NCBI RefSeq assembly: GCF_900199405.1
Contig: NZ_LT963430.1
Span: 1,054,001 to 1,118,000, forward strand
DNA length: 64,000 nt
Direction: 5' to 3'
DNA from: Beduinella massiliensis
GTDB taxonomy: Bacteria > Bacillota > Clostridia > Christensenellales > Aristaeellaceae
Shown: one piece after another, positions 24,586 to 42,327 of the stretch
Layout: each line of letters starts with the position of its first letter
Position numbering within the stretch: the stretch's first letter is position 1
The notes under the pieces: model-generated
What the model was told of the DNA's origin: nothing
What the model saw: the letters and a program-made list of their open reading frames with translations, nothing else
Database searches by the model: none
Made by a program: the position numbers and the translations under genes

Positions 24586-25005
24586 TCAGTCGTTCAGCTG
24601 TTCCGCGTGGTGCTTGACGCGCAGGCGGTTGATCGAACGGGCGAGCTGCGCCTGCGTCTCCAGGTATTCGCGGCGGCTCATCTTTTGAAGCATGGCTTCG
24701 CGCGCGACGTCCGCGACCCGCTGGGCCCGGTTTTTGTCGATGTCCTCGGGGCGCTCCGCGGTCTCCACCAGCACCAGCACCCGGCCGTCCTCGATCTTGA
24801 TGAGGCCGGAGGACACGGCAGCGAGGCGTGGGCGCTCGCCGGGCAGCGTGTAGCTCAGCTCGCCGGGCGTGATGGCGGCGATCATGTTGCAGTGGTTCGC
24901 CTGAACGCCGCGCTTGCCGTCAGGCGTGGGCACGACCAGCGAAACGCAGGGGCCCGCGTAAAACGAGCAGGCGGCGGCGAGAATGTCTACGTGAAAGCTC
25001 TCCAT
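24586..25005 (-). CDS. atpC: F-type ATP synthase subunit epsilon
   Basis: 139 aa, usual length. It is a rotor subunit of the F1 central stalk that can inhibit ATP hydrolysis. The N-terminal beta sandwich (FHVDILAAACSFYAGPCVSL, then GELSYTLPGERPRLAA) and a C-terminal helical pair are recognisable, although the start of the domain is divergent. ATG 25005 lies one base after the atpD stop, with GGAG inside the end of atpD. Last gene of the operon. Confidence 0.88.
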   Translation of the reverse strand: MESFHVDILAAACSFYAGPCVSLVVPTPDGKRGVQANHCNMIAAITPGELSYTLPGERPRLAAVSSGLIKIEDGRVLVLVETAERPEDIDKNRAQRVADVAREAMLQKMSRREYLETQAQLARSINRLRVKHHAEQLND

Positions 25006-25006
25006 C

Positions 25007-27288
<2,282 letters not shown>

Positions 27289-27289
27289 T

Positions 27290-29062
27290 TTAATTCCTCC
27301 CGAAGCGGGCGGCGTTCTTGTCGAGGAAGTCGCCCGCGATGCTGAGGATCTGCTGCTTTCTCTCGTCCGTCAGCGTCCTGTCCTCCTCCAGCCCCGTGCA
27401 CAGGCTGGGGTGCTCCTGCTCGAAGTGCTCCAGCATCGCGTCCCTGAAGGCGGCGATGCGGGCGTCGGGCACGTTCAGGAACAGGCGCTCCATGGCGCAG
27501 ACCAGCACGATGACCTGCGCATGCTGGCTCAGCGGATGGTACTGCTTCTGGCGCAGCATGCGCATCAGCCCCTGGCCGTAGCGCAGCTGTTCCCGGGTGT
27601 TCTCGTCCAGGTCGCTGGAAAACTGGGTGAAGACCTCCATCTCCCGGTATTGCGCGAGGTCCAGACGCAGCGCGCCCGTCGCCCGCTTCATGGCCTTTGT
27701 CTGCGCCGCGCCGCCCACGCGCGATACGGAAAGGCCCACGTTGACCGCCGGACGCTGGCCCGCGAAGAACAGGTCGCTTTCCAGGAAGATCTGGCCGTCC
27801 GTGATGGAGATGATGTTCGTGGGGATGTAGGCCGACACGTCGCCTGCCTGCGTCTCCACGATCGGCAGCGCGGTCATGCTGCCGCCGCCCAGCGCGTCGC
27901 TCAGGTGGGCCGAGCGCTCCAGCAGGCGGGAATGCAGGTAGAAGACGTCGCCGGGATAAGCCTCGCGGCCGGGGGCGCGCTCGAGCAGCAGGCTCATCGC
28001 GCGGTAGGCGATGGCGTGCTTGGACAGATCGTCGTAGACGATCAGCACGTCGCGGCCCTCGTGCATGAAGTATTCCGCCATCGCGCAGCCCGCATAGGGC
28101 GCGATGTACTGCATAGTGTCTTCCTCGCCCGCCGTGGCGCTGACGACGATGCAGTAATCGAGCGCGCCGCGCTTGCGTAGGTTTTCCACGAGCTGGGCGA
28201 CGGAGCTGGCTTTCTGGCCGATGGCGACGTAGATGCACAGGACGTTCTTGCCCTTTTGGTTGAGGATGGCGTCCAGCGCGATGGCCGTCTTGCCCGTCTG
28301 CCGGTCGCCGATGATGAGCTCGCGCTGACCGCGGCCGATGGGGAACATCGCGTCGATGGCGAGCAGGCCCGTTTCCAGCGGCGTATCGACGCTCTTTCTT
28401 TCGATGATGCCCGGCGCGGGTTCCTCGATGGGGCGGTAGCCGCTGGGCTTTACTTCCGGCCCGCCGTCGATGGGGCGGCCCAGCGCGTCCACCACGCGGC
28501 CGAGAAAGCCTTCGCCGACGGGGACGCCCGCGGTCTTGCCCGTTCGGGCGACGCGGCTGCCGGCCTCGATCTCCTCGTCGTCGCCGAACAGGATGCAGCC
28601 GGTTTCGTGCCGGCGCAGGTCTTGCACCATGCCCTTCACGCCGCACTCGAAGAGCAGAATTTCGCCGTAGGCGGCGTGCTCCAGCCCTTCCACCACGGCG
28701 ATGCCGTCGCCCACGGAGAGCACCGTGCCGATTTCGCTGCTGGTGGCGAGCAGCTTGAACTCCTGAATGCCGGATTTGAGCAGCGGGATGATGCTGCCGT
28801 CTTGCAGGCCGTGAAGCGCGCGCTGCTCCACGCTTTCCCTGAATTGCTGAAGGCGTCCTTCGGCGCTCCAGTCGTAGACCTCGCCGCCGGCGCTGAGGCG
28901 GAAGCCGCTTCGCAGGGAGGGGTCGATCTCGATCGAGAGGGCGACCTCCGCGCCGTACTTCTGCGAAAGAAACCGGCGCATCCGCTCTTCCTGCGCGGCG
29001 TCGGGCGGGGTGACGCACAGGAGCCGCGCGGTGAGCCGTTCAACCGGGGTTTTGTCCGTCAT
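27290..29062 (-). CDS. atpA: F-type ATP synthase subunit alpha with N-terminal delta-like domain
   Basis: 590 aa, about 85 longer than usual. Residues about 10-78 look like the C-terminal domain of subunit delta/[23 protein letters not shown], then [20 protein letters not shown] and [13 protein letters not shown], matching the delta pattern of (I/V)DpsLxGG...(D/G)xSxxGrL. From about 95 a normal alpha subunit follows: [14 protein letters not shown]-loop GDRQTGKT at 252-259 and the alpha Arg region. The ATG at 29062 has GGAGG and overlaps the atpF stop, so the extension is translated as one protein. No separate atpH exists between atpF and atpA. Confidence 0.9.
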
Positions 29063-29556
29063 AACTGCTCATCCTCCTGTGCCGCTTCCAAGAAGCGGTC
29101 GTACAGCGCCCGCTCGCTTTCGAGATCGAGCTCCTTTTGGGAGAGCTTTTCCGCCGCGGAGACGACCAGCTCGGCGATGTCCTTCTGGGCGCCCTTCAGG
29201 ATGGCCGCCCGCTCCTGCTGAGCGGCCGCGCGGGCGTCGGAAAGCAGCCTGTCGGCCTGCTCCTTCGCGCGGAGCAGGCTTTCCTGCCTGCTTGCGTCGA
29301 GCTGCTGGTTTGCGGCCGCGGCGCGCTGCTTGATTTCTTCGTCCGCCGTCTCAAGCCGTTTTTCGTATTCGCTGAGGACCGCCTGGGCGGCGGCCTCCTT
29401 TTCCGCGCTCTGGCGGTCTAGCTCCGCGTAGTGATCCTGCCGCTTTTGCATGAAGGCGAGCACGGGCTTATAGAGCAGCAGGTAGAGCCCGGAGGCGAGA
29501 AGGACGAAGTTGAACAGATGCAGCAGAATCTGCTGAAAATTGATGTTAAGGGGCAT
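29059..29556 (-). CDS. atpF: F-type ATP synthase subunit b
   Basis: 165 aa. Peripheral stator. One N-terminal membrane segment ([18 protein letters not shown]) is followed by a long charged helix rich in Ala, Glu, Lys and Gln. ATG 29556 ([10 protein letters not shown]) has AAGGTGA upstream; the longer frame to 29607 lacks an RBS. It overlaps atpA by 4 bp. Confidence 0.92.
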
Positions 29557-29640
29557 AGGTTCACCTTGTACAATGGGCGTCCGAAAGCGCCCATTCCCTT
29601 TCTCCACAATCGGGAATCGTGTCGGCCGGGCAGACTGCGC

Positions 29641-29680
29641 GCGGGCGCTCTATCGGGCTTCGATCGCCCGATGCGCCCGC
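29641..29680 (-). promoter_or_regulatory. Intercistronic hairpin between atpE and atpF
   Basis: A two-step stem: GCGGGCG (29641-29647) with CGCCCGC (29674-29680) outside, ATCGGGC (29652-29658) with GCCCGAT (29666-29672) inside. The 157-bp gap 29557-29713 holds no gene. Such a structure could stabilise the atpE message and help supply the many copies of subunit c. Confidence 0.5.
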
Positions 29681-29713
29681 CGGTATTCGGGGCGCGCGGC
29701 GGACCGGCCGCGC

Positions 29714-30064
29714 TTACAGAACGAAGATGATGAGGATGGCGACGATCAGGGCGTAGATGATCGCCGTTTCCACGAAGACGAGTCCCAGCATCAGGTTCGT
29801 GCGGATGCTGCCCTCGGCTTCGGGCTGGCGGGAGATCGCGTCCACCGACTTGCCGATCGATATGCCCATGGCGATGGCGCCCGCGCCCGCCGCAAGGCCG
29901 ATGGCGATCGCGGCGCTGAGCGCCTTGGCGGAGGAGAGCATATCCTGCGCGCCGGCGGGAAGAACGTCCTCGGCCAGGGCCGGGCACACGAGCATCGTCA
30001 GAAGAAGGGCTACCGTCAGGCAGAGCATGATCCTGCAAAGGGGCTTTTGAATGGACTTTTTCAT
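29714..30064 (-). CDS. atpE: F-type ATP synthase subunit c, with N-terminal signal-like extension
   Basis: 116 aa, longer than the usual 70-90. ATG 30064 has GGAGG upstream. Residues 1-31 form a typical signal sequence (KKSIQKPLCR, a hydrophobic core, then PALAED). The two-helix hairpin follows: AAGAGAIAMGISIGK in helix 1, the polar loop SRQPEAEG, and helix 2 with the ion-carrying Glu in FVETAIIYALI. The Glu-Thr and the Tyr five residues on resemble Na+-binding c subunits, but the usual helix 1 Gln is replaced by Met, so ion choice is open. Confidence 0.92.
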   Translation of the reverse strand: MKKSIQKPLCRIMLCLTVALLLTMLVCPALAEDVLPAGAQDMLSSAKALSAAIAIGLAAGAGAIAMGISIGKSVDAISRQPEAEGSIRTNLMLGLVFVETAIIYALIVAILIIFVL

Positions 30065-30080
30065 CGTATCATTCCTCCGT

Positions 30081-30944
30081 TTATGATTGTGCCGCCGCAG
30101 GCGCGGGCTTGGCTGCGCTTCCGGCTTTGTTGGCCTTGGGGACGTGAGGCTCGGTGACCTCGCCATAGAAGAGAGACGTCAGCATCGTCAGCACGTAGGT
30201 CTGAATGAGCGCGTGCAGAAGGGTGAAGAGCACGGCCACCACCACGGGCAGCACGAAGCTGAGCGAGATGGAGTAGTACACGAGCTCCGACACGAGCAGT
30301 CCGCTGAGCAGCGCGCCGAAAAGGCGGAAGCTCATGGAGATGGGCAGCGAGAAGTCCTTGAGCGTCTGCCCGACGCCGCGCAGGCCGTTGCTGATCAGTC
30401 CGCCGGTCAGGATCACGGCGTAGGACAAAAAACCGAGCGCGATCGCGGCGTTGATGTCGGACAGGGGGGCGGGCAGCGAGATCGAGCGTCCGGCCGTGGT
30501 GACGGCCTGGATGCCGAACAGCTCAAACAGCGTGCCGAAGAAGATGTATACGCCCGCCCCGAAGATGTACGCGCCGAGGAAGCGGTAGCGATGCGGGCTG
30601 TTGCCCTTGGCGAGGCGATGAAAGAACGACACCAGCTCTTCCAGGACGACCTGCAGCCTGCCCGGTACGTAGCGAAAGCGTGGAATCGCGAAGAGACGCA
30701 GCAGCGCCGCCACGCCCAGCAACAGGCCCGTCAGCACGAAATCGGAGATGACCGCGGGGTTGACCTCCAGAACGCCGAAGAGGCCGATGCGGTTCTCCTC
30801 GTGCAGCACTGCGTCCCGCATGACCGTCTTGATGGATTCAGTCTGTCCGCCCCCGGAGCCGGTGAGCAGGCTGGATGCAAGCAGGGCCGTCAGCAGAAGG
30901 GCGACCGCCACGCAGAAACGGACTTTTCCCTTTTTTTGCTTCAT
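30081..30944 (-). CDS. atpB: F-type ATP synthase subunit a
   Basis: 287 aa. Stationary half-channel of F0. ATG 30944 is preferred over TTG 30965 because AGAGG lies between them. The essential Arg is in SMSFRLFGALLSG, with the family FELFGIQ and LTGGLISNG segments. The first 30 residues are signal-like (VALLLTALLASSLLTG). First gene of the atp operon; no atpI precedes it. Confidence 0.92.
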   Translation of the reverse strand: MKQKKGKVRFCVAVALLLTALLASSLLTGSGGGQTESIKTVMRDAVLHEENRIGLFGVLEVNPAVISDFVLTGLLLGVAALLRLFAIPRFRYVPGRLQVVLEELVSFFHRLAKGNSPHRYRFLGAYIFGAGVYIFFGTLFELFGIQAVTTAGRSISLPAPLSDINAAIALGFLSYAVILTGGLISNGLRGVGQTLKDFSLPISMSFRLFGALLSGLLVSELVYYSISLSFVLPVVVAVLFTLLHALIQTYVLTMLTSLFYGEVTEPHVPKANKAGSAAKPAPAAAQS

Positions 30945-30979
30945 ACGATACCTCTTTTCCAACACTTCAAATCAAACGC

Positions 30980-31101: not shown

Positions 31102-31153
31102 AAAAAAAGCAATCCGGCCCCGGCCTGCCGGAGCAGGCGCGGAACCGGATCGC
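31102..31153 (-). terminator. Terminator of the Mrp-like operon
   Basis: On the minus strand a long GC-rich hairpin (outer GCGATCCGG with CCGGATTGC) ends in seven T residues (the A run at 31102-31108 on the plus strand). It separates the antiporter operon from the atp promoter. Confidence 0.8.
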
Positions 31154-31183: not shown

Positions 31184-33253
31184 TTAAAGCGTCATCAGGT
31201 AGGTGAACGTCAGGTACATGCCGATGCAAAGCAGCAGCAGGCCGAAGGAGACGCTGCGGGTGATGAGCCGCCCGCCGCTTTGCACCTCTTCCAACCCGGC
31301 CGCCAGGGCGACGGTGAAGTCCGTCCTGATCGGGCGGCGATGGTAGACCGTGCGGTTGAGCACCCAGACAAAGCCGTTGAGGAGGGAGCCCAGGGCGTAG
31401 GTGAGATGCGTGCCGACGGGTACGGGCTTGTGCTTCTTCGTCTTGCCCAGGAACGTATGGCGCAGGGCGATGATGACGGAGTCGGTGAGCTCGTCCAGCG
31501 CGCGGGTCAGGGCGACCAGCACGGGGTTCGGCAGCACCTTGGTCAGCAGAGGCCGGTACACGGCTTCCTCCAGGTCGAGCTTCGCGGGCCAGCGGTTGAC
31601 GTAGGCGCGCGAGCGTTTTTCCTTTTGCATCAGGAAGGCGCGGATGAGCGCGTACAGGACAGCGCCGATGACGATGGACTTGAGCGCGCCCATGAGGTTT
31701 TCGGAGGAGAAGTAGGCGACCGCGTGCTCCGGCGATACGCCGCCCAGGAATCCCTGCGCGAGGACCGCGATGCGGGTCATGAACACGTCCGGCAGCATGC
31801 CCAGCAGCGGCAGCAGCACGGCGGAGCCGCACAGCGCGAACGCGGACAGCCGGTTCATGTACTTGCCGTTCAGCGCGTCGAACTGGGCCTGGCTCGTGTC
31901 GTTCTTCTCCCAGAAGAGGGCGACGTACAGCTTGGTCATGTACGCGAGCGTCATACCGCCGGTGACGACGAAGAGGATTTCCACGAAGCGGTACAGGCCC
32001 GCGGCCGCCCCAGCCTCGCCGAGCAGAGCGACGTACTCGAGGATGCTCTCGTGCAGCAGGGACTTGCTGATGTAGCCGTTGAAGAGCGGGACGCCCGCGA
32101 TCCCCAGCGCGCCCAGCAGGAACGCCGCGTGCAGCAGGGGCTTGCCGCGCCCGAAGCCGCGGATGTCGTTCAGCTCCAGCTTGTGCAGGTTCATGAAGAC
32201 CACGCCTGCGCACAGGAAGAGCGTCAGCTTGATGAGCGAGTGATTCACCATGTGCAGCACCGTACCCTGCACGGCAAGGGCGTTATGCGGGCCCAACAAC
32301 CCCTGCATGCCCACGCCCACGAGGATAAACCCGATCTGCGACATCGAGGAGCAGGCCAGCGTGCGCTTGAGGTTTACGGAGAACAGCGCCAGCAGCGCGC
32401 CCAGGAACATGGTGACGCAGCCAAAGAAGAGGACGGCGTCGCCCCAGGGGGCGTCGTGCAGGAAGAGGTTGCAGCTCACCGCGAGGATGCCGAACAGGCC
32501 CGTCTTCGTCAGGATGCCGGAAAGCAGGGCGCTGGCCGGGGCCGGGGCCACGGCGTGCGCCTTGGGCAGCCAGATGTGCAGCGGGAACATGCCGGCCTTG
32601 GCCGCGAAGCCGAAGAACGTGAGCGCGCCCGCGAGGTAGAGCGGGGAGCGGTCCTGCATCGCAGCGGCCTCAGCGCGCATGCCGTCAAAGGCGAGCGTGC
32701 CGAGCTTGCTGTAGAGCAGGAACAGGCCCATCAGCGTCACCAGGCCGCCGATGACCGCGATGTACAGGTACGTCTCCGCCGCGCGCAGGGACTCCGCGCG
32801 CTCGTCGTGCGCGACCCAGGCATAGGAGGTGAGCGACATCACCTCGAAGAACACGAAGGTGGTGAACAGGTCGTCGGAGAGGAACACGCCCATCGTCGCG
32901 CCCAGCGTGAGCAAGGTGAACAGATAGTAGCGGTTGCGGTTATGGTAGTGCTTGAAGTACTCCGGCGAGAACAGCGTCGTCATCATCCACATGAAGGCGG
33001 CGATGGCGCCGTAAAGCGCGCGGAATCCGTCCAGGCGGAAGGTGAGGCCCATCGCGCAGAAGCCCTCCCAACGAAAAGCGTAGGAAGCCCCGCGCAGGAC
33101 GCTGAGCAGAAGCAGCGCCGCCGCGGCGAACTCCGCCACCGTGAAGGCGCAGCAGAGCACGTCGCGCAGGTGCTTGTCGCGCCGTCCCGCGAGGTAGGAG
33201 GCCAAGGCGCCCGCCATCGGGAAGAAGACGAGCACGGGTAAAAGCAGGTTCAT
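31184..33253 (-). CDS. NuoL-type proton/cation antiporter subunit
   Basis: 689 aa, the longest of four antiporter-type subunits. ATG 33253 with AAGGAGGAGG upstream. It has about 14 core membrane segments of the proton-pumping transporter family (EVMSLTSYAWVAHDERAES, FGFAAKAGMFPLHIWLPKAH, SGILTKTGLFG, MVNHSLIKLTLFLCAG). A long C-terminal extension after about residue 490 includes a charged stretch and a final membrane segment, which could be a NuoL-like lateral helix. Last gene of the operon. Confidence 0.88.
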   Translation of the reverse strand: MNLLLPVLVFFPMAGALASYLAGRRDKHLRDVLCCAFTVAEFAAAALLLLSVLRGASYAFRWEGFCAMGLTFRLDGFRALYGAIAAFMWMMTTLFSPEYFKHYHNRNRYYLFTLLTLGATMGVFLSDDLFTTFVFFEVMSLTSYAWVAHDERAESLRAAETYLYIAVIGGLVTLMGLFLLYSKLGTLAFDGMRAEAAAMQDRSPLYLAGALTFFGFAAKAGMFPLHIWLPKAHAVAPAPASALLSGILTKTGLFGILAVSCNLFLHDAPWGDAVLFFGCVTMFLGALLALFSVNLKRTLACSSMSQIGFILVGVGMQGLLGPHNALAVQGTVLHMVNHSLIKLTLFLCAGVVFMNLHKLELNDIRGFGRGKPLLHAAFLLGALGIAGVPLFNGYISKSLLHESILEYVALLGEAGAAAGLYRFVEILFVVTGGMTLAYMTKLYVALFWEKNDTSQAQFDALNGKYMNRLSAFALCGSAVLLPLLGMLPDVFMTRIAVLAQGFLGGVSPEHAVAYFSSENLMGALKSIVIGAVLYALIRAFLMQKEKRSRAYVNRWPAKLDLEEAVYRPLLTKVLPNPVLVALTRALDELTDSVIIALRHTFLGKTKKHKPVPVGTHLTYALGSLLNGFVWVLNRTVYHRRPIRTDFTVALAAGLEEVQSGGRLITRSVSFGLLLLCIGMYLTFTYLMTL

Positions 33254-33268
33254 GATCGATCCTCCTCC

Positions 33269-34741
33269 TTACAGCAGGCCGCCGGCGACGGCCTCAAAGT
33301 AGTGGACGAGCGGCGTAGAGAACAGGCCCAGCAGCACGATGGCCGCGCACAGCACGAGCAGCGGTCCCTTCATGAGCCAGCTGGGGTCGCGGCGCTCCCC
33401 GGCGAGGGCCATGCTGCCCTCCGCGAGCGGGGAAAAGGCCGCGGTTACGACCACGTAGAGCAGGTAAACCGCCGTCAGCACCGCGGAGACGATCAGCGCA
33501 GCCGCGCCGATGTAGCCGGGCGTGAGGCCGCTGGTCACAGAGGCCGTCAGCAGGTTCCACTTGCTGATGAAGCCGACCATCGGCGGCACGCCCACCAGCG
33601 CCAGCGCCGCGAGGGTGTACACGCCCATGGTGAAGGGCATGACTTTGTAATAGCCGCGCAGGTCCTGTACGTATTCCTTGCCGGTCTTCACCAGCACCGC
33701 GCCTGCGCAGTAGAAGAGGGTGATCTTCATCAGGCCGTGGAAGCAAAGGTGCGTGAGGCTGCCGACGAGGCCTGCTGGGGTCATCAGCGCCGCGCCCAGC
33801 AGGATGTAGCTGAGGTTGCTGACCGTGGAGAAGGCGAGGCGGCGCTTGAAGTGCTGCTCGCGCACGGCCATGGCGGAGCCGTAGACGATGGTGAACGCGG
33901 CCAGCAGGATCGCGACCGCCTGCGCCCAGGTGCCGAAGAGCAGCTCCGTGCCGAAGCTGTAGTAGATCAGGCGGATGCAGGCGAACGCGCCGGTATTGAC
34001 GACCGCGACCGCGTGCAGCAGCGCCGTGACCGGCGTGGGCGCGACGGAGGCGAGGGGGAGCCAGGCGTGCATCGGGAACATGGCGGCCTTGGTGCCGAAA
34101 CCGATGAAGGCGAGCAGGAACACCAGGCGCAGCAGCTGCTCGCGGCCCGCGATGGCCTCCGCTGTCAGCACGCCGCCGTACTGGAAGGCCGTGCTCGTGC
34201 CGAACGTCATGATGAACACCAGGCCGATGAAGGCGAGCGCCGCGCCGCTGATGGAATAGACCAGATAGCGCCGGCCTGCGAGCGCGGACTTGGCGTCCAT
34301 CTTGTGCGTGACCAGCGGCAGGGTGATGAGTGTCAGGCACTCGTAGAACACGTAGAGGGAAAAGAGGTTCGCCGCCATGGTGATGCACAGCGTCACCCCG
34401 TAGGTCATGGTGTAGAAGGCGAAAAAGGACGTCTCGTGCTCCTCATGGGCCATGTACTCGAACGCGTAAAGCGTCGCCAGCGGCCAGAGAAAGGCGATCA
34501 GGCCCATGAACACGCTGCCCGCGCCGTCAAGACGCAGGGCGAGGGAGAGCTCGTCGGTCATGTGAAAGAGCGTGAGCGTTCCCTCCGGGCGGCGAAGGAG
34601 CAGTCCAAGCGCCATCAGCGAGGTGAGGGTGGTCACGACCTGCACGTAGATGGAGCGGCGCTTTCGATCCTCCAGGTGAAGCAGGGGAAGAACCGCGCCG
34701 CCGATCAGCGGCAGCAAAAAGGTGCAAAGCATCAATGTCAT
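33269..34741 (-). CDS. NuoM/MrpD-type antiporter subunit
   Basis: 490 aa. ATG 34741 with GAGAGG upstream. Core features are FYECLTLITLPLVTHKMDAKSA (the conserved Glu on helix 5), FGTKAAMFPMHAWLPLAS (the helix 7 Lys), and VALVGVPPMVGFISKWNL. It is a close paralogue of the next two upstream genes, indicating local duplication of the antiporter subunit. Confidence 0.88.
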   Translation of the reverse strand: MTLMLCTFLLPLIGGAVLPLLHLEDRKRRSIYVQVVTTLTSLMALGLLLRRPEGTLTLFHMTDELSLALRLDGAGSVFMGLIAFLWPLATLYAFEYMAHEEHETSFFAFYTMTYGVTLCITMAANLFSLYVFYECLTLITLPLVTHKMDAKSALAGRRYLVYSISGAALAFIGLVFIMTFGTSTAFQYGGVLTAEAIAGREQLLRLVFLLAFIGFGTKAAMFPMHAWLPLASVAPTPVTALLHAVAVVNTGAFACIRLIYYSFGTELLFGTWAQAVAILLAAFTIVYGSAMAVREQHFKRRLAFSTVSNLSYILLGAALMTPAGLVGSLTHLCFHGLMKITLFYCAGAVLVKTGKEYVQDLRGYYKVMPFTMGVYTLAALALVGVPPMVGFISKWNLLTASVTSGLTPGYIGAAALIVSAVLTAVYLLYVVVTAAFSPLAEGSMALAGERRDPSWLMKGPLLVLCAAIVLLGLFSTPLVHYFEAVAGGLL

Positions 34742-34763
34742 ACGTTTACTTCCTCTCTTTCGC

Positions 34764-36242
34764 TTACAGGACGCTGCCCGCGATGGACAGGAAGAAGGAG
34801 ATGAACGTGCCCGGGAACATGCCGATCAGTACGGCGAGCGCCGTGAGCGCGATCATCGGAACCGTCATGAGCGCGGTCGGCTCAGCCTTGGGAAGCGCCG
34901 CCAGGTCAGCCTTGTCGCCCGGAAAGAATCCGCGGGTCGAGATGGGCAGCAGATAGCCCGCGGTGAGCAGGGCGCTGACCAGCAGCACGACCGGGCCGAG
35001 CCAGGCGTACACGCCCGCGCCCATCGAGAGAGAACCGTTCGCCAGGTACCACTTGCTTACGAAGCCGCCCGTCGGCGGGATGCCGATGAGCGCGACGGAG
35101 ACCAGCGTGAAGCACCAGATGACGATGGGCATCTGCTTGCCGATGCCGGTCAGCTCGTCCGCGCTCGTCTTGCCGGTCTTTTCGATGATCGCGCCCGCGC
35201 CCATGAACAGCGTGTTCTTGATCAGCGAATGGCACACCACGTGCAGCAGCGCGCCTACGAAGCCCAGCGGGGTGAGCGTGAAGAGGCCGAAGAGCACGTA
35301 GGAAACCTGGCTGACCGTGGAGTAGGCCAGCCGCTTTTTGAGCAGGCTCTCCTTGAAGGCGAGCATCGAGCCCAGAAAGACGGTGACGAGGGCGAGACCC
35401 ATCGACAGGCCCTGCACCCAGGTGCCGCGCAGGAAATCCGGGCCCACCAGGAAGAAGACGACGCGCAGGATGCCCAGCACGCCCGCCTTGGTGATGACGC
35501 CCGAGAGCACGGCGCTCGCGGGGGAGGGGGCGACCGGGTGCGCGGTCGGAAGCCACGCGTGCATCGGGAACATGCCCGCCTTGACGCCAAATCCCAGGAT
35601 CATGAGCATCACGACGAGCAGCAGCAGCGGCTCGTGGCCGGCGACCCTCGCCATGTCCAGCGCCCCGCCGGGGGTAAAGGTGAGGCCGGTGCAGTAAAAC
35701 TGCAAAAAGAAGATGCCCAGCAGCGCCAGCGAGGCGCCGAACACGGAGTAGATGAGGTACTTAATGCCCGCTGCGATAGCTTCCTTGGTCTGCGTGTGCA
35801 GCACCAGCGGAAGGGAAAGCAGGGTCATCGCCTCGTAGAACATGTACAGCGTCACGATCGTGCCCGAAAGCGAAAGCCCCATCAGCGCCGCGAGCGTGAG
35901 CAGGTAAAAGGCGTAGAACCGGCGCTCGTTTTGCTCGTGCGCCATGTATTCAAACGAGTAGAAGCCGACCATCGCCCACACGAACGCGATCAGCGCCGTG
36001 AACAGCTTGGCGATGCCGTCCGCCTTCAGGAGGACGGGGATGGTGTCGGTCAGGTAAAACAGCGTCAACTGCGTCTCGCCCCGGAATAAGGCCGGCAGCG
36101 TGCACAGCATCGTCGCAGCGAGCGCCGCGCCCGTAAAGAGGTTTCGCGCGCGCCGGGTATCGAGCGCCTTGAAAAAGCACACGATGAGCCCTGCGGCGAG
36201 CGGAACCGCCACGGGAAGCAGCAGCGTAAGATCGCCTTGCAT
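34764..36242 (-). CDS. NuoM/MrpD-type antiporter subunit
   Basis: 492 aa. ATG 36242 (MQGDLTLLLP) has AAGGAG; the frame is open much further upstream but that part is antisense shadow of the next gene. It contains FYEAMTLLSLPLVLHTQ, FGVKAGMFPMHAWLPTAHPV, SGVITKAGVLG, LLHVVCHSLIKNTLFMGAGA and IGIPPTGGFVSKWYL, the typical ion-channel motifs. It is about as similar to the 33269 gene as to the 36272 gene by eye. Confidence 0.88.
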   Translation of the reverse strand: MQGDLTLLLPVAVPLAAGLIVCFFKALDTRRARNLFTGAALAATMLCTLPALFRGETQLTLFYLTDTIPVLLKADGIAKLFTALIAFVWAMVGFYSFEYMAHEQNERRFYAFYLLTLAALMGLSLSGTIVTLYMFYEAMTLLSLPLVLHTQTKEAIAAGIKYLIYSVFGASLALLGIFFLQFYCTGLTFTPGGALDMARVAGHEPLLLLVVMLMILGFGVKAGMFPMHAWLPTAHPVAPSPASAVLSGVITKAGVLGILRVVFFLVGPDFLRGTWVQGLSMGLALVTVFLGSMLAFKESLLKKRLAYSTVSQVSYVLFGLFTLTPLGFVGALLHVVCHSLIKNTLFMGAGAIIEKTGKTSADELTGIGKQMPIVIWCFTLVSVALIGIPPTGGFVSKWYLANGSLSMGAGVYAWLGPVVLLVSALLTAGYLLPISTRGFFPGDKADLAALPKAEPTALMTVPMIALTALAVLIGMFPGTFISFFLSIAGSVL

Positions 36243-36271
36243 GGGATAACACTCCTTCTTCAGCGGCCCTA

Positions 36272-37768
36272 TCAGCCGAAATGGGCAAGCCCCTGGGTGA
36301 TCGCGTTCAGCACCGGCTGCGAGCAAACGCCCAGCGCGATGTTCACGCCGATGGAGACGACCATCGCGAAGGCGAACGAGGTGCGGGGCCTGAAGTCCTT
36401 GGCCTCCGGGTATTCGCGGATCGCCGGGCGGTAGATCGTAATGACGGTGCGCAGGAAGTACAGGGTGTTGAGCGCCGTGCTGATGGCCAGCACGAGCAGC
36501 ACCAGAATCATGCGCATGCCGCCCGCCTGCATCGCCGCGGAGGCGAAGCAAAGCTTGGACATGAAGCCGCCGAAGAACGGGATGCCGACCATGGAGAACG
36601 CGCCTACGACAAAGGCGACGCCCGCGATGGGGTTGCGATACGCGCTGCCGCGCAGGTCGCGGAACATGCGGCGTTCGCCGGAAACCTCGCACAGGCCGCC
36701 GGCGGAGAGGAAGAGCATGGATTTCGCGGCGGCGTGCGCAAAGATGTGGAAGATGGCGGCGACGATGCCCGCCTCGGACCCCAGGCCGATGCCCATGAAG
36801 ATGTAGCCGATCTGCGCGACGGAGGAGTAGGAGATCATGCGGCGGATGTCCTTTTCCTTGATCGCGGAAACCGAGCCCATCACCACGCCGACCAGCGCGA
36901 AGACGAGCAGGATGTTGTCGATCCCCGACTCGCGGATGACGTCCAGCCCGATGACGCGGTACATGACCTTGATGAGCAGGAAGATGTAGCCCTTGCTCAC
37001 GAGACTGGAGAGCATCGCGCTGGAGGCGGGCGTGGTGTAGCCGTAGGCGTCCGGCAGCCAGGTGTGGAACGGGAACAGCGCGCTCTTGATCGCAAGGCCC
37101 AGGCACATCAGGGCGATCACGACGGTGAGCGGCTGGTGGTAAAGGCCCGTCTCGGAGAGGATCACCACCTGCTCGTGGATGTTTTCCATGAGCAGATGCC
37201 CCGTCAGGTCGTAAAGCAGCGTCAGCCCCAGCAGGAAGAGGCCGCTGCCCAGCAGGTTCATGACCATGTAGCGCGTGGCGGCGACGAGCGTGCGCCCCTT
37301 GGTGCGGGCGGTGATCAGCGAGCACGCGGCGATGGTCATGATTTCGACGAAGACGTAGGCGGTGAAAAGGTCGTTGGTGTAGATCTGGGCGAGCAGCGCG
37401 GTGAGCAGCAGCTCGCACATGATGAAGTACAGGTTCTGCTTGGATTCCTCCACGTGCTCCTCGACCTTGGAAAGGCCGCCGAGCAGGGAGATGAGCATGA
37501 TGAGCGCAAAGACGAAGGCCGTCACAGCCTCCAGAAGGCCCGCGCGGATTTCATTGCCCCACGGCGCGGGAAAGTGGCCCATCATGAACGTGTAGCTTCC
37601 GCCGTTCACGTACATGAAGCCGATCAGCAGGCCGGAGAGGCCGAGGACGACGCTCGTGACGGCGATGGCCGTGCGGCGCGCCGCCTTTGCGGGCATGATC
37701 GAGGTAAAGGAGGCCGAAGCCAGCGCGATCAGGATGCTGAAGAAGGGGATGTTCTGCCAAAACGCCAC
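36272..37768 (-). CDS. MrpD/NuoN-type antiporter subunit
   Basis: 498 aa. It starts at GTG 37768, with AAGGAGGAA upstream. Motifs are FVEIMTIAACSLITARTKG, LAIKSALFPFHTWLPDAYG, SSLVSKGYIFLL, IFAHAAAKSMLFLSAGGL and MVGIPFFGGFMSKL. It follows the MrpC-like gene directly, as mrpD does in standard Mrp operons. Confidence 0.88.
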   Translation of the reverse strand: MAFWQNIPFFSILIALASASFTSIMPAKAARRTAIAVTSVVLGLSGLLIGFMYVNGGSYTFMMGHFPAPWGNEIRAGLLEAVTAFVFALIMLISLLGGLSKVEEHVEESKQNLYFIMCELLLTALLAQIYTNDLFTAYVFVEIMTIAACSLITARTKGRTLVAATRYMVMNLLGSGLFLLGLTLLYDLTGHLLMENIHEQVVILSETGLYHQPLTVVIALMCLGLAIKSALFPFHTWLPDAYGYTTPASSAMLSSLVSKGYIFLLIKVMYRVIGLDVIRESGIDNILLVFALVGVVMGSVSAIKEKDIRRMISYSSVAQIGYIFMGIGLGSEAGIVAAIFHIFAHAAAKSMLFLSAGGLCEVSGERRMFRDLRGSAYRNPIAGVAFVVGAFSMVGIPFFGGFMSKLCFASAAMQAGGMRMILVLLVLAISTALNTLYFLRTVITIYRPAIREYPEAKDFRPRTSFAFAMVVSIGVNIALGVCSQPVLNAITQGLAHFG

Positions 37769-37769
37769 G

Positions 37770-38144
37770 TTACGGTTCCTCCTTTCGCATCATGCTGGTA
37801 ATTTCGTCGATGTCCAGCGAGTGATAGCGGCGGTACAGGCGCACGGTGAGCGCGAGCATGAGCGCGCTGACGGAGACGGAAACGACGATGCCGGTCAGCA
37901 CCAGGCCGCTGGGGATGGGGTTGATGTACGCCTCGACGGACTGCACGCCGTCCACCATGATGGGCGCGCCGCGGCCCGCGATGAAGCCCTTGGCGGCCAG
38001 GAACAGGTAGATGGCGCTGTCCATCATGGAAAAGCCGATGATCTTCTTGATCATGTTGCGCTGCAGCAGCAGCGTCGTGATGCCGATGCCGAACAGGATG
38101 ATGGCCGCGGCCTCTTCGTAGTTGGTCAGAAGGTTTTGAAGCAT
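37770..38144 (-). CDS. mrpC: MrpC/MnhC-type (NuoK-like) antiporter subunit
   Basis: 124 aa, three membrane helices. ATG 38144 (MLQNLLTNYEEA) with AAGGGGG, sharing one base with the preceding stop. The helix 1-2 region IILFGIGITTLLLQRNMIKKIIG and the IPSGLVLTGIVVSVSVSAL segment are classical for the family. The C-terminal tail is cytoplasmic and charged. Confidence 0.88.
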   Translation of the reverse strand: MLQNLLTNYEEAAAIILFGIGITTLLLQRNMIKKIIGFSMMDSAIYLFLAAKGFIAGRGAPIMVDGVQSVEAYINPIPSGLVLTGIVVSVSVSALMLALTVRLYRRYHSLDIDEITSMMRKEEP

Positions 38145-39169
38145 CACATATCCCCCTTCCGGAAGAGCGTGTAGAACGCATACATGGTGCAGCATACGAC
38201 CATGCCCACCGCGATGTTCAGAGGCAGAATCAGGCCGGAGGAGAGGATGGCGCCGGGCGTGCCCAGCGGGATGCCGCTTTCAAGGTGATTGGCGCCGGTG
38301 AAGAAGGAGTAGCTCTTGGCCAGCGCGTAGAATGCCAGCGCGCAGAAAGAGACGGTCTTAAAGGTTTTGAACGTGAAGAAGCGCTCCGTCTTCTCAAATC
38401 CAAATGCATTCAGGTACAGGATCAGGCCGGCGCCCATGACGGCGCCGCCGGAGAAGCCGCCGCCCGGCGACAAATGGCCGTTTAAGATGATGTAAATGCC
38501 GAAGAGCAGGATCAGAGGCACGAGGATCGTCGCTGCCTTTTGCAGGATGATGTCGTTCTTGGGCTCGTAGACGCGGTCGTCGATTTCGGCGTCCTGCTTT
38601 TCCTGCGACATGCTGCCGTCGCGCTTCTTTTCCTGCGTCACGCGCAGAAGGATCAGCACGCTGCAGGCGGCGATGAAGAGCACGTGGCTCTCGCCCAGGG
38701 TATCGAAGGCGCGGTAGTCGAGGATCATGCCCGTCACGATGTTGACGGCGCCCGTTTCCTGAATGCCGCGCTCGATGTAGCGCCCGGAAACTTCATTGTT
38801 GATGGGGTTGTGCTCGTCGCCGAAGTGCGGCAGGTCGGCGACCGTGCCCAGCAGCACGTAGATGATGGAAAGGCAGATGACGACGGAGAGCAGCGCGTAC
38901 AGCGTGTTCACCAGCTTGCGGCCCCGCGTGCGGGTCCAGCCGTGCATCTGCTCCAGCATCGCCCGTTCCTTTTCACGCGCGGCGTCCTGGCGCGCGTCGT
39001 AGGCGTTTTCCATCTCGGCGATGGATTCGCTGGAGAGCAGCGAGTTGTCCGGCGCGGCCTCGGTCAGATCCTGCTCCATTTCGCTTTCAAGGCGCGAACC
39101 GCCCCGGCGAACCCAGCGCATGAAGCGGGCGAACGGCGTGTTTTCGTAATCATTTCTCAGCTTCGCCAC
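38144..39169 (-). CDS. Fused MbhE-like and MrpB-type antiporter subunit
   Basis: 341 aa. It starts at GTG 39169 with GGAAGGGGG upstream. Residues 1-75 are hydrophilic. A first membrane part (VNTLYALLSVVICLSIIYVL, then ERGIQETGAVNIVTGMILDYR and DTLGESHVLFIAA) resembles the E subunit of membrane-bound hydrogenase/MrpA end; after a charged linker (about 165-195) a normal MnhB domain follows (GHLSPGGGFSGGAVMGAGLIL). In standard Mrp these regions belong to MrpA and MrpB. Confidence 0.82.
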   Translation of the reverse strand: MAKLRNDYENTPFARFMRWVRRGGSRLESEMEQDLTEAAPDNSLLSSESIAEMENAYDARQDAAREKERAMLEQMHGWTRTRGRKLVNTLYALLSVVICLSIIYVLLGTVADLPHFGDEHNPINNEVSGRYIERGIQETGAVNIVTGMILDYRAFDTLGESHVLFIAACSVLILLRVTQEKKRDGSMSQEKQDAEIDDRVYEPKNDIILQKAATILVPLILLFGIYIILNGHLSPGGGFSGGAVMGAGLILYLNAFGFEKTERFFTFKTFKTVSFCALAFYALAKSYSFFTGANHLESGIPLGTPGAILSSGLILPLNIAVGMVVCCTMYAFYTLFRKGDM

Positions 39170-39434
39170 GATGCTCGCCCCCTTCCGCTTCCTTTTCGGT
39201 GTCGATGGCGTGAATTTTCTTGAGCGTGACGAACATCAGCAGGCTGGTGACGCCCGCGCCGACCGCCGCCTCGGTGATGGCCAGGTCCGGGGATTGCAGC
39301 AGGATCCAGATGATGGACATCGCCAGGCTCTGTGACATGAAGATGATAAGCGAGGTGAGCAGGTTCTTCGTCAGGCTCACCGAAACGGCGCACACGATGA
39401 TGAACACGAGAAGAAGGATGTTTAGAAATTCCAT
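39150..39434 (-). CDS. MbhD-like (DUF4040) antiporter subunit
   Basis: 94 aa, three membrane helices. ATG 39434 shares one base with the mrpG stop. The SPDLAITEAAVGAGVTSLLM segment is the hallmark of the MbhD/MrpA C-terminal region. Its last 20 bases overlap the start of the fused MbhE/MrpB gene. The C-terminal tail is charged. Confidence 0.85.
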   Translation of the reverse strand: MEFLNILLLVFIIVCAVSVSLTKNLLTSLIIFMSQSLAMSIIWILLQSPDLAITEAAVGAGVTSLLMFVTLKKIHAIDTEKEAEGGEHRGEAEK

Positions 39435-39754
39435 TACCTGTGCACCTCCATTTCCTTTTCGAGCTTTTCGTTGGTGGTGACCTCCAGGCGGCAGACCAGG
39501 TGGCTGGACACGGGGCTCGTGATCCACAGCATCAGGATGACGAGCACGAGCTTGAGCGACGTGAAGGTCGCGCCCTCGGCCACGATGAGGGAGAGCAGCA
39601 CGAAGAGAATGCCCATCGTGTCGTTCATGGCGGCGGCGTGCATGCGGTTGAGCACGTATTGAAAGCGGAACACGCCGAAGACGCCCACGCACAGCACCAG
39701 CAGCCCGCAGGTCATCAGGGCGGCGGAAACGGAAAAGCGCAGCACCTCAAGCAT
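39434..39754 (-). CDS. mrpG: MrpG/MnhG-type antiporter subunit
   Basis: 106 aa. VGVFGVFRFQYVLNRMHAAA and the MGILFVLLSLIVAEGA helix identify the family; a short charged tail follows. ATG 39754 overlaps the end of mrpF by 8 bp. Confidence 0.9.
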   Translation of the reverse strand: MLEVLRFSVSAALMTCGLLVLCVGVFGVFRFQYVLNRMHAAAMNDTMGILFVLLSLIVAEGATFTSLKLVLVILMLWITSPVSSHLVCRLEVTTNEKLEKEMEVHR

Positions 39755-40061
39755 CGCCCTTCGCCTCCTTTGCCTCTTTCTGCTTCTTTTCGAGGTAGAC
39801 GCCCATGTAGACCTTGGTGAGCAGCACGACGGCCAGGAAGCCCAGCATCGTGTAAATCAGCGCGACGTCCACCAGATATCCCTCGCCCATCGCCAGGGCC
39901 AGCACGCAGATGATGATCGTGACGATGGTGCAGATCATGTTGACCGCGACGATGCGGTCCGCGATGCGCGGCCCGCGTATGGACCGGATCAGGCACAGGA
40001 ACAGCAGGATGCCCAGCACCACGAAGGCGGCGTTATACAGAATCTGATAACAGCTTTCCAT
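39747..40061 (-). CDS. mrpF: MrpF/MnhF-type antiporter subunit
   Basis: 104 aa, three helices. Family signature RSIRGPRIADRIVAVNMI and the DVALIYTMLGFLAVVLLTKV helix. ATG 40061 overlaps the mrpE stop (ATGA). A Lys-rich tail ends the protein. Confidence 0.92.
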   Translation of the reverse strand: MESCYQILYNAAFVVLGILLFLCLIRSIRGPRIADRIVAVNMICTIVTIIICVLALAMGEGYLVDVALIYTMLGFLAVVLLTKVYMGVYLEKKQKEAKEAKGDA

Positions 40062-40525
40062 CAGCGCTTCCCCTCCAATTCAAGCAGGCGGCGCTCGAAG
40101 TCCGAGTCTTCAAGCCCTTCTCCCAGCGACTTGTCCAGGCAGTGCACGAGGAACCTGTCCCCTTCGACCTGCACGGTGATCGTGCCCGGGGTCAGGGTGA
40201 TGGAATCCGCCAGAGCCGCGCGCGAGGTGTCGGACTGAAGCTTCGTCCTGAAGCCCACGAGCTCCGGCTCCACCTCGTACTTGGGGGTGAGGATGAAGTG
40301 CATGACGTGGATGTTCGCCTTGAAAATCTCAACGAGAAGCGTCCACGCGTAGGAAAGCACACGCGGCATGCGCCTCAGCGCGCGCCACTCCTGCCGGGGG
40401 CCGTAGCCCATGAACTTCCACGTGAACAGGTACAGCGCGGCGCAAAGAAAAAGCCCCAGAAGGGCAATTTCGGTGGTCCACTGTCCGTTGAAGATCACCC
40501 ACATCATAAAGAACACAACGAACAT
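40061..40525 (-). CDS. mrpE: MrpE/MnhE-type antiporter subunit
   Basis: 154 aa. An N-terminal membrane part is followed by a cytoplasmic domain with SITLTPGTITVQVEGD, the MnhE hallmark. ATG 40525 has AAGGGAGG upstream. First gene of the ten-gene operon, behind its promoter. Confidence 0.9.
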   Translation of the reverse strand: MFVVFFMMWVIFNGQWTTEIALLGLFLCAALYLFTWKFMGYGPRQEWRALRRMPRVLSYAWTLLVEIFKANIHVMHFILTPKYEVEPELVGFRTKLQSDTSRAALADSITLTPGTITVQVEGDRFLVHCLDKSLGEGLEDSDFERRLLELEGKR

Positions 40526-40556: not shown

Positions 40557-40586
40557 ATTGTACTGCCGCGGGTAAGGCCGCGTCAA
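40557..40586 (-). promoter_or_regulatory. Promoter of the Mrp-like operon
   Basis: On the minus strand TTGACG (40586-40581), an 18-bp spacer, and TACAAT (40562-40557), about 32 bp before the mrpE ATG. Confidence 0.65.
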
Positions 40587-40758: not shown

Positions 40759-41310
40759 TTACGGCGCGGCGTATTTGGCGGGGCCCGCCTGATACAGATC
40801 GGTTCCTTCGCTGTCGATGGCGACGATGAGCGGCAGGTTTTCAACGCTGAGCGCGCGGACGGCCTCCGTGCCCAGATCCTCAAAGGCGAGCACGCGCGCT
40901 TCCTTTACGCACTGCGCGATGAGCGCGCCCGCCCCGCCCGTCGCGGCGAAGTACACCGCTCCGTTTCGTTTGATGGCTTCCACGACCTGGGGCCTGCGAA
41001 AGCCCTTACCGATCATCGCCGCCAGCCCCAGGTCGAGCAGGCGGGGGGCGTAGGCGTCCATGCGCCCGCTTGTGGTGGGCCCGCACGAACCGATGACGTC
41101 GCCGGGCTTGGGCGGGCAGGGGCCCGCATAGTAGATCGCTTGATCCGCCAGATCGACGGGCAGGGGCTTTCCCTCGTCCAAAAGGGCGATGAGGCGCTTG
41201 TGCGCGGCGTCGCGTCCGGTAAGGATCGTCCCCGAAAGCAGCACGCTGTCGCCCGCCCGCAGGGCTTTCAGGGCCTTCCGGTCGAAAGGCGCGGTGATGG
41301 AAATGGGCAT
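40759..41310 (-). CDS. Fumarate hydratase, beta (C-terminal) subunit, class I
   Basis: 183 aa. The swivelling domain of the two-subunit iron-sulfur fumarase/tartrate dehydratase family. Motifs are DSVLLSGTILTGRDAAHKR, IYYAGPCPPKPG, GSCGPTTSGRMD and MIGKGFRR. ATG 41310 has AAAGGAAG. It follows the alpha subunit after 40 bp. The exact hydroxy-acid substrate (malate or tartrate) cannot be told, but fumarase is more usual. Confidence 0.9.
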   Translation of the reverse strand: MPISITAPFDRKALKALRAGDSVLLSGTILTGRDAAHKRLIALLDEGKPLPVDLADQAIYYAGPCPPKPGDVIGSCGPTTSGRMDAYAPRLLDLGLAAMIGKGFRRPQVVEAIKRNGAVYFAATGGAGALIAQCVKEARVLAFEDLGTEAVRALSVENLPLIVAIDSEGTDLYQAGPAKYAAP

Positions 41311-41350
41311 GAAAAGACTTCCTTTCTGCGTGAGGATGAGGACGGCGCGT

Positions 41351-42190
41351 TTAAAGCGTAGCTTCCTTGTGACGCGCCGCGTGGCATTGCATGTTGACCG
41401 CGACCGGCAGCCCCGCGATGTGCGTGGGCGTCTGGGCGACGTGCACGGCCAGCGCCGTCACGTCGCCGCCCAGCCCCTGCGGACCGATGCCCAGCCGGTT
41501 GATGCGCGCGAGCAGCTCCCGCTCCATTTCCGCGAGGTTCGGATCTAGGCTCGGCGCGCCGACACTTCGCGTGAGCTGGCGCTTCGCCAGCAGCATGCAG
41601 CTTTCCGCCGTGCCGCCGATGCCCACGCCCACCACCACCGGCGGACAGGGGTTCGCGCCCGCGAGGCGCACCGTCTCCACGACGAAGTCCAGGACGCCTT
41701 CCCGTCCCTGCGAGGGGGTCAGCATGCCCAGACGGCTCATGTTTTCGCTGCCGAATCCCTTGGGCGCGACGGTGATGTGCACCTGTTCCCCCGGGAGAAT
41801 GCGCACGTGCAGCACGGCGGGCGTGTTGTCGCCGGTGTTCACGCGCTCGAGCGGGGTCAGCACGGAATTGCGAAAGCAGCCGTCCCGGTAGGCGCGCCGA
41901 ACGCCCGCGTTCACCGCCTCCGTCAGGTCGCCGCCGGTCAGGTGCACGTCCTGACCGACGTCCAGAAAGACGACGGCCATGCCCGTGTCCTGACAGATGG
42001 GCATCTGCCTTTCGCAGGCCAGACGGTCGTTTTCGATGAGCTGGCGCAGGATGTCCCGCCCAAAAGGCGAGCGCTCGCGGCGCAGCCCATCCTCTAGCAG
42101 GGCGAGTACGTCGTCTCCGATTTCGCAGCAGGCGCTGCGGCACAGGGCGTACAGGGTATCCTCGATTTGCTGAACGTGTATTTCTCGCAT
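41351..42190 (-). CDS. Fumarate hydratase, alpha (N-terminal) subunit, class I
   Basis: 279 aa. It carries the 4Fe-4S cluster: Cys in MPICQDTGMAVVF, Cys in GANPCPPVVVGVGIGG and Cys in VNMQCHAARH. ATG 42190 is preferred over the longer frame (42265), which runs into the promoter; GGAGGG precedes it. Oxygen-sensitive, fitting an anaerobe. Confidence 0.92.
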   Translation of the reverse strand: MREIHVQQIEDTLYALCRSACCEIGDDVLALLEDGLRRERSPFGRDILRQLIENDRLACERQMPICQDTGMAVVFLDVGQDVHLTGGDLTEAVNAGVRRAYRDGCFRNSVLTPLERVNTGDNTPAVLHVRILPGEQVHITVAPKGFGSENMSRLGMLTPSQGREGVLDFVVETVRLAGANPCPPVVVGVGIGGTAESCMLLAKRQLTRSVGAPSLDPNLAEMERELLARINRLGIGPQGLGGDVTALAVHVAQTPTHIAGLPVAVNMQCHAARHKEATL

Positions 42191-42221
42191 TCGTATCCCT
42201 CCGGCATTTGTGTCTGCCCCC

Positions 42222-42250
42222 ATCATACCGCACGCGCGCGCGCGAATCAA
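42222..42250 (-). promoter_or_regulatory. Promoter of the fumarase operon with CG-repeat spacer
   Basis: On the minus strand TTGATT (42250-42245), a spacer of exactly 17 bp made mostly of alternating C and G, and TATGAT (42227-42222), 32 bp from the alpha-subunit ATG. Confidence 0.7.
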
Positions 42251-42327
42251 CCGATAACGCGTCATTTTAGAACCGTATAAACGACTTTTTATGCGTAACC
42301 CCCTCGCATTTTAGCGCAGAGAGCGTG

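Follow-up and report, generated by a model that had tools for sequence, protein, structure and literature searches.

The DNA analysed is a 64,000-nucleotide (nt) stretch of Beduinella massiliensis (assembly GCF_900199405.1, contig NZ_LT963430.1), hereafter the window, whose own coordinates are used throughout. On its minus strand, positions 31184 to 40525 carry an operon of ten genes in the order mrpE, mrpF, mrpG, mbhD, a fused mbhE-mrpB, mrpC and four genes for large antiporter-like subunits, which are named D1 to D4 in gene order (498, 492, 490 and 689 amino acids (aa); Table 1). An earlier reading of the window (the original prediction) had given this gene order and these four lengths and had seen no catalytic module within the operon; open reading frames and Pfam assignments confirm all of this, the ten genes being Mrp/Mbh-type throughout. 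Every gene was assigned by Pfam (MNHE, MrpF_PhaF, PhaG_MnhG_YufB, MbhD, MbhE with MnhB, Oxidored_q2 and four times Proton_antipo_M) with E-values from 2e-10 to 6e-55, and NCBIfam models agree for each gene, with listed scores below those models' own cut-offs. Adjacent genes overlap or are separated by at most 29 nt. This tight spacing, together with a promoter-like site upstream of mrpE and a hairpin after D4, makes a single transcription unit likely; promoter-like and terminator-like sites are only slightly commoner in the window than in shuffles (3 vs 1.7; 12 vs 8.4). The ATG at 36242 gives the 492-aa D2 within an open frame of 884 aa. The true start of mrpC is suggested to lie near 38147, because many relatives have a protein of only 121–125 aa. 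The MbhE-MrpB fusion, in the window and in relatives, has an N-terminal extension of about 90 residues.

Table 1. Features of the ten-gene operon and of its neighbourhood (window coordinates).
Feature	Position	Strand	Evidence or remark
mrpE, 154 aa	40061-40525	-	PF01899 MNHE 9.2e-33
mrpF, 104 aa	39747-40061	-	PF04066 7.2e-13; aligned to 6z16_F; Asn41 at MrpF Asp35 position
mrpG, 106 aa	39434-39754	-	PF03334 5.9e-21
mbhD-like, 94 aa, part of MrpA C-terminal domain	39150-39434	-	PF13244 4.4e-19; aligned to 6u8y_D, 6cfw_D
fused mbhE + mrpB, 341 aa	38144-39169	-	PF20501 2.3e-10, PF04039 3.8e-25
mrpC, 141 aa as listed	37770-38195	-	PF00420 6.3e-20; top PDB match 6u8y_G
D1, 498 aa, putative MrpD/MbhH/NuoN slot	36272-37768	-	PF00361 5.9e-55; top PDB match 6u8y_H MbsH 5.7e-47; trees
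D2, 492 aa, first copy of duplicated middle subunit	34764-36242	-	PF00361 1.3e-54; trees
D3, 490 aa, second copy of duplicated middle subunit	33269-34741	-	PF00361 1.4e-48; trees
D4, 689 aa, putative MrpA-N/NuoL slot, long helical C-terminal tail	31184-33253	-	PF00361 2.2e-54; model, Foldseek, tree
promoter-like site upstream of mrpE	40557-40586	-	TTGACG-18-TACAAT, 10/12; consensus match only
terminator-like hairpin and T-run just after D4	31113-31132	-	consensus match only
F-type ATP synthase operon	24586-30965	-	directly downstream of the Mrp operon
c subunit of this ATP synthase	29714-29920	-	Met at position 32, Phe at 63
two-gene fumarase	40759-42265	-	PF05681, PF05683; upstream of the Mrp operon

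Homologues of MrpA-N, MrpA-C, MrpB, MrpC, MrpD, MrpE, MrpF and MrpG, which characterize the Mrp (CPA3) antiporters, are encoded together in this operon, with MbhD and MbhE representing MrpA-C, and no redox module of the NuoB, NuoD or NuoH type accompanies them. Canonical Mrp groups 1 and 2 comprise six or seven genes with two large subunits, and the present ten genes with four large subunits lie outside both. The operon agrees with group 3, which covers clusters with all Mrp subunits in irregular order or with extra copies (PMC5703873). The NuoB-, NuoD- and NuoH-like catalytic or anchor subunits of membrane-bound hydrogenase (MBH), membrane-bound sulfane reductase (MBS), Ech and Ehr complexes are lacking, as are the NuoB/D/H core and the NuoM-type glutamate on transmembrane helix (TM) 12 of respiratory complex I.

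The original prediction had offered two readings, an enlarged stand-alone Na+/H+ antiporter or the membrane arm of an enzyme whose catalytic arm lies elsewhere, and had proposed to search the genome for catalytic genes and to follow their co-occurrence across relatives. D1 to D4 are the only PF00361 (Proton_antipo_M) proteins found in the 4.18-Mb genome of B. massiliensis, and profile searches of that genome gave no match to PF00146 (NuoH/EchB type), PF01058 (NuoB type) or PF00346 (NuoD type); controls of the PF00146/PF01058 search were positive in 11 of 14 genomes. The ten-gene set recurs across relatives, and neither PF01058 nor PF00346 occurs in 39 of the 40 carrier genomes (B. massiliensis included, the only one searched for PF00146), among them Hungatella hathewayi DSM 13479 with its complete chromosome (locus L157). 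The lone exception is Eisenbergiella porci (L181 genome), where PF01058, PF00346 and PF00146 stand side by side with a PF00361 protein of their own; this set appears to be a separate, self-contained Ech-like hydrogenase. The idea of a redox enzyme of the complex I, MBH/MBS or Ehr type, for which the operon would supply the membrane arm and genes elsewhere the catalytic subunits, can draw on the subunits held in common with MBH/MBS and on small-subunit relatives that adjoin NuoH/NuoD-like genes in loci L137 and L114, the only two such cases among the 40 phylum loci described below. Since the genome has no NuoB, NuoD or NuoH homologue and the NuoB and NuoD types are missing in 39 of the 40 carriers, a catalytic arm of these families is rejected, and the membrane-arm reading as a whole is hardly credible. 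The absence of these homologues and the presence of a single PF00361 set in the genome support the other reading, that of an enlarged stand-alone antiporter with predicted exchange activity.

Phylogenetic analysis of the four large subunits, which had also been proposed, placed them in Mrp-type slots instead of those of NuoL, NuoM and NuoN. In a first tree of 85 proteins, in which D1–D4 came from 16 loci, each of the four forms a single group (Shimodaira–Hasegawa-like approximate likelihood ratio test (SH-aLRT) 99–100). Peptoclostridium acidaminophilum has three such subunits: the first is the sister of D1, the third that of D4 (99 each), and the second falls in one group with D2 and D3 (100). 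Relative to the Nuo and Mnh proteins the place of D4 is open in this tree, and MnhD falls outside the D1 group. A second, wider tree grouped D1 with NuoN, NuoM and MnhD, and D4 with NuoL and MnhA (99 each), NuoM and NuoN being long branches of unsure place. Both are quick trees with long branches and SH-aLRT support only, and the careful tree is that of the middle subunits. The trees thus put D1 in the MrpD/NuoN slot and D4 in the MrpA/NuoL slot. In the careful tree, D2 and D3 are sister clades (100/99, each clade itself 100/99) nested within the middle-subunit clade, and because of this nested sister relationship the operon is read as a three-subunit Mbh-like stand-alone Mrp with a duplicated middle gene. 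The likeness to complex I that had been pointed out holds for the presence of several antiporter-like subunits, and this likeness is one of number only, as the trees show Mrp-type subunits with a duplicated middle and not NuoL/M/N. A complex I remnant is rejected by the trees and by Lys, not Glu, on TM12.

The four-subunit clusters of L120 and L133 combine two older kinds of middle subunit. Constraining D3 to group with the third-slot proteins of these two loci cost 173.8 log units, with an approximately unbiased test p-value (p-AU) of 4.6e-105 that is nominal, as the constraint group was chosen after an earlier tree. A single origin of four-subunit sets is rejected by this constraint, and four-subunit sets therefore arose at least twice. 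In locus L071 (Sinorhizobium meliloti pSymA), a complex I-like operon has two annotated MrpD-like subunits besides NuoM and NuoN, and the first of the two falls among the middle subunits in the trees.

Residues of the proton path were compared at the Glu-TM5, Lys-TM7 and TM12 columns, those of Escherichia coli NuoM E144, K234 and E407. Among the D1–D4 proteins of the 16 loci, Glu-TM5, Lys-TM7 and Lys-TM12 are kept in 64 of 64 as read from the alignment letters, and a TM8 lysine is kept in all 48 D1, D2 and D4 proteins. D3 has Asn (10 of 16) or Lys (6 of 16) at this TM8 position and, in 16 of 16 and in no other subunit type, a His at the NuoL His254 column of TM8. When the comparison was extended to 84 proteins of this cluster and related ones, the five of L108 among them, the TM5 Glu was retained in all 84, the TM7 Lys in 80 and the TM12 Lys in 83. 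The four TM7 exceptions are last subunits of another class, with Asn instead, and the remaining TM12 case is a protein cut short of the position. The TM12 Glu of NuoM or HyfB was found in no subunit of these clusters in either the 64- or the 84-protein set.

The distribution of the operon was followed through the MbhE-MrpB protein, which was matched in 33 of 100 genomes of relatives. Thirty of these belong to its own family and gave strong matches (B. massiliensis included), G068 belongs to another family of the order, and G035 and G079 carry Mrp clusters that are smaller and of a different kind. Of the 30 four-type loci read among relatives (L035–L064), 25 are complete with ten genes; L038, L045, L052 and L061 are cut by contig ends, and in L054 the D4 sequence is spread over several frames. 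A scan of one genome per species (84,980 species) yielded at least 80 loci, labelled mostly Lachnospiraceae or unclassified Clostridia and in many cases derived from guts and rumens. Of the 80 listed, 61 carry all ten genes, 16 are cut by contig ends, and in two (L186 and L198) one of the large subunits is divided between two frames. The last, L176 (15625-19846), has an eleventh gene, a second full-length D4 in tandem (723 and 687 aa), which results in five large subunits after mrpC. As all ten genes recur both among the relatives and in the species scan, the pattern is not a matter of chance. The four-large-subunit antiporter thus appears to be widespread in gut Clostridia, with carriers including Hungatella, Eisenbergiella and Schaedlerella.

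In a sample of the phylum, the MbhE-MrpB profile matched 141 of 398 genomes, and 40 loci were read, roughly the best-scoring ones, so that their counts are not an unbiased frequency. Exactly three large subunits occur in 24 of these 40, the commonest kind there. Four follow mrpC in L104 (cut), L105, L120 and L133; in L117 two precede mrpE and two follow mrpC. L108 and L109 are stand-alone Mrp clusters with five large subunits in several groups, one of them upstream of mrpE. Apart from L137 and L114, the rest are truncated or contain only one or two large subunits. The commonness of three-large-subunit stand-alone clusters among these best-scoring loci, and a three-subunit relative (L106) that keeps D2 without D3, would suit a different arrangement, in which D2 and D3 are alternative middle subunits of two three-channel complexes, D1-D2-D4 and D1-D3-D4. 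However, in complete loci D1 and D4 flank both D2 and D3, and the distinct signatures of these two, with the TM8 His in D3 only, suit fixed neighbouring positions better than interchange; such an arrangement is distinctly improbable.

For the cation path, the roles of the MrpA, MrpC and MrpF residues were taken from PMC7419157. Five of its eight positions (MrpA E706, D792 and E796, MrpC T75 and MrpF D29) are kept in nearly all four-type loci. Glu55 of the MbhD-like protein, equivalent to MbhD Glu69 and MrpA Glu706, is Glu in 96 of 96 loci, and Asp156 and Glu160 of MbhE-MrpB, mapped to MrpA Asp792 and Glu796 by the Asp-Thr-Leu-Gly-Glu spacing, are kept in 98 of 98. The MrpC T75 position is likewise kept in 98 of 98 and the equivalent of MrpF Asp29 (D35 of the window protein) in 94 of 95. 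Lys285 of MbhE-MrpB is also kept in 98 of 98 four-type loci and is mostly Gly in other clusters.

The ten genes probably encode one stand-alone Mrp-type (CPA3) cation/proton antiporter of split, Mbh-like layout with four channels, a putative reversible proton/sodium converter. MrpE, MrpF, MrpG, MbhD, MbhE-MrpB and MrpC would form the cation module. Judging from the slots and from homologous structures, D1 would lie against MrpC and D4 would cap the far end, with D2 and D3 between them, lengthening the proton module from three channels to four. One proton per large subunit may be moved in each cycle and relayed along the Lys/Glu axis to a single cation site, which would raise the exchange ratio from about two H+ per cation towards four. 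Models in the literature on the two-large-subunit Mrp point to a probable ratio of about two protons per Na+ (PMC9568556, PMC7419157). The complex would work as a reversible converter of proton and sodium gradients, with sodium as the most likely ion, in anaerobes nearly all of which encode Rnf. By simple arithmetic, running in one direction it could use a weak proton-motive force to keep up a steep Na+ gradient, with a sodium potential up to four times larger; in the other direction, up to four H+ could be driven out against a small gradient for each Na+ that enters. We infer the assembly into one complex, the stoichiometry, the ion and the direction from sequence. A more specific proposal is a series of four proton channels, or of five in the case of one relative, with Lys on every TM12 in the four-type members checked, one cation site and about four (or five) H+ per Na+; it is tentative and falls somewhat short of probable.

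Regarding the ion, RnfC scored above the cut-off in 38 of 40 carriers and is present in the B. massiliensis genome. The c subunit of the main ATP synthase of this genome (L251:7097-7354) has Glu32 and Val-Ala-Glu-Thr-Thr-Gly-Ile-Tyr at positions 63–70, which is the two-carboxylate Na+ pattern of Fusobacterium except for Thr in place of Ser66 (PMC3692424). RnfC and this c subunit together make a sodium economy likely in B. massiliensis. The same Na+ pattern may also mean that the sodium gradient is primary, and Mrp members moving K+ or Ca2+ are known (PMC5703873). Both points would agree with a complex of the same composition that mainly exchanges K+ (or another cation) or exports protons driven by entering Na+ for acid resistance. 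On the other side, most cation-path positions match Mrp/MBH, and the F-type c subunits of two Hungatella carriers and of G467 are without the Na+ pattern, which indicates that a sodium economy is not general; this variant is somewhat unlikely.

Several observations weigh against the proposed four-channel proton/sodium antiporter. L106 has D2 only, D3 having apparently been lost, so that such a loss is tolerated, and NuoF- and NuoG-like genes lie beside its cluster on the opposite strand. The lack of a NuoB/NuoD-type partner in 39 of 40 carriers comes from a search in which soluble NuoF/NuoG-type partners were not looked for. Of 30 family members that lack the operon, 24 have RnfC as well, and Rnf does not track the operon; being common with and without it, Rnf is not discriminating and is rejected as a specific partner. 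If a lateral helix ran over four subunits, the D4 tail would be expected to grow with the number of large subunits, and it does not. In the cation path, the MrpF Asp35 position is occupied by Asn in all 95 four-type loci compared. The MrpC His pair (H37, H40) is missing from the four-type loci; the His40 position has Tyr or Phe, and in 98 of 98 an acid stands where MBH has Asp37. MrpF Asp35 is termed invariant and important in the Mrp of Anoxybacillus flavithermus, and in Bacillus subtilis its changes to Glu and Asn are described as not so detrimental, while Leu inactivates (PMC7419157). Asn is also found at this position in 28 of 40 other loci, and MBH/MBS are likewise without one or both of the MrpC His residues. 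Since most positions are kept and Asn at D35 is mild in B. subtilis, the MBH/Mrp-type cation path would be largely intact, with a changed entry residue.

The structural model of D4 has a mean predicted local distance difference test score (pLDDT) of 81.0 (18-sequence input). Its top Foldseek match is MrpA (7qru_A), and the MrpA, NuoL and MrpD folds are the closest. The tail is helical in the model, with several helices rather than one long helix, and 9 of the 13 ten-residue blocks past residue 560 are under pLDDT 60. The length of helix HL has been said to match the number of antiporter subunits (PMC7684303). Past a common reference position, the window D4 has 122 residues and NuoL has 62. Median tails of the D4 class are 142 residues in four-subunit (n = 90), 134 in three-subunit (n = 18) and 102 in five-subunit loci (n = 3), with 54 and 228 in two-subunit loci, and the evidence leans against a simple lateral-helix ruler.

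Among the closest known systems are stand-alone clusters with three large subunits, namely the 24 phylum loci described above and a cluster on a plasmid of Peptoclostridium acidaminophilum (NZ_CP007453). The plasmid cluster has the same gene order and a split MrpA, and its three large subunits, annotated in the database as proton-conducting transporter subunits, group with D1, the middle subunits and D4; it differs in the number of large subunits and in having MbhE and MrpB as separate genes. Group 3 Mrp clusters with a duplicated mrpD include those of Synechocystis, Aphanothece (mrpCD1D2EFGAB) and Microbacterium (mrpFGBCDDAE) (PMC5703873); they are stand-alone with extra MrpD-like subunits, as here, but as written hold at most three large subunits in another gene order. 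The Mrp locus of the nitrite oxidiser Candidatus Nitrospira alkalitolerans has two further NuoM/NuoL-like genes after mrpD (PMC7784846); going by the written description (mrpA-G plus two), the number of large genes there may also be four. The Mrp complexes of A. flavithermus and Bacillus pseudofirmus (6z16, 7qru) consist of homologous subunits and have the five of eight cation-path positions in common with the operon, but they contain two large subunits, MbhD/MbhE parts within MrpA, MrpF Asp35 and MrpC His37/His40. Pyrococcus furiosus MBS and MBH (6u8y, 6cfw) are the top PDB sequence matches of D1, D4, MrpC, MrpF, MbhD and MbhE-MrpB; they have two or one antiporter subunits and a catalytic arm, which is absent from the operon. 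Respiratory complex I also has antiporter-like subunits in a row, but its NuoM-type TM12 Glu and its quinone and NADH modules are absent here. No publication that explicitly describes four large subunits in a stand-alone Mrp, or the spread of such clusters in gut Clostridia, was found in the open-licence literature. Extra MrpD-like genes in Mrp clusters have already been published, and the operon should work like an Mrp antiporter and would fit the loose group 3.

How energy travels along rows of antiporter-like subunits is an open question of complex I and its kin. The TM12 glutamate of NuoM, the extra subunit, was suggested to permit anti-phase working (PMC7419157), and an engineered all-lysine complex I still pumps, at a lower ratio (PMC9271201). 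Nature offers this machine with two, three, four or five large subunits and no redox arm. Such a series would provide a test of channel-chain coupling, and H+/Na+ ratios across it would reveal whether every subunit adds one proton. If the proposal is true, a charge-symmetric chain longer than that of complex I has been made more than once by subunit addition, and the operon may represent an overlooked energy-converting complex of gut commensals, including Hungatella, Eisenbergiella and Schaedlerella.

An F-type ATP synthase operon (a, c, b, alpha, gamma, beta and epsilon) lies next to D4, with a terminator-like and a promoter-like site between it and the Mrp operon. Only the loci of the genus (L035, L036) have it beside the Mrp operon; it is absent from the flanks available for 152 other loci, which in many cases reach at most 3 kb beyond D4. 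As far as these flanks extend, the genus-only adjacency gives no sign that the ATP synthase is a general part of the system, and a partnership is rejected. By its residues at positions 32 and 63, its c subunit is probably not Na+-type. The alpha subunit (590 aa) has the C-terminal half of delta/OSCP at its N-terminus (PF00213 positions 104-171, 2.5e-9); no separate delta gene was seen in this operon, and a second, ordinary ATP synthase with its own delta is encoded elsewhere in the genome. The two-gene fumarase on the other side of the Mrp operon is also found beside it only in the genus.

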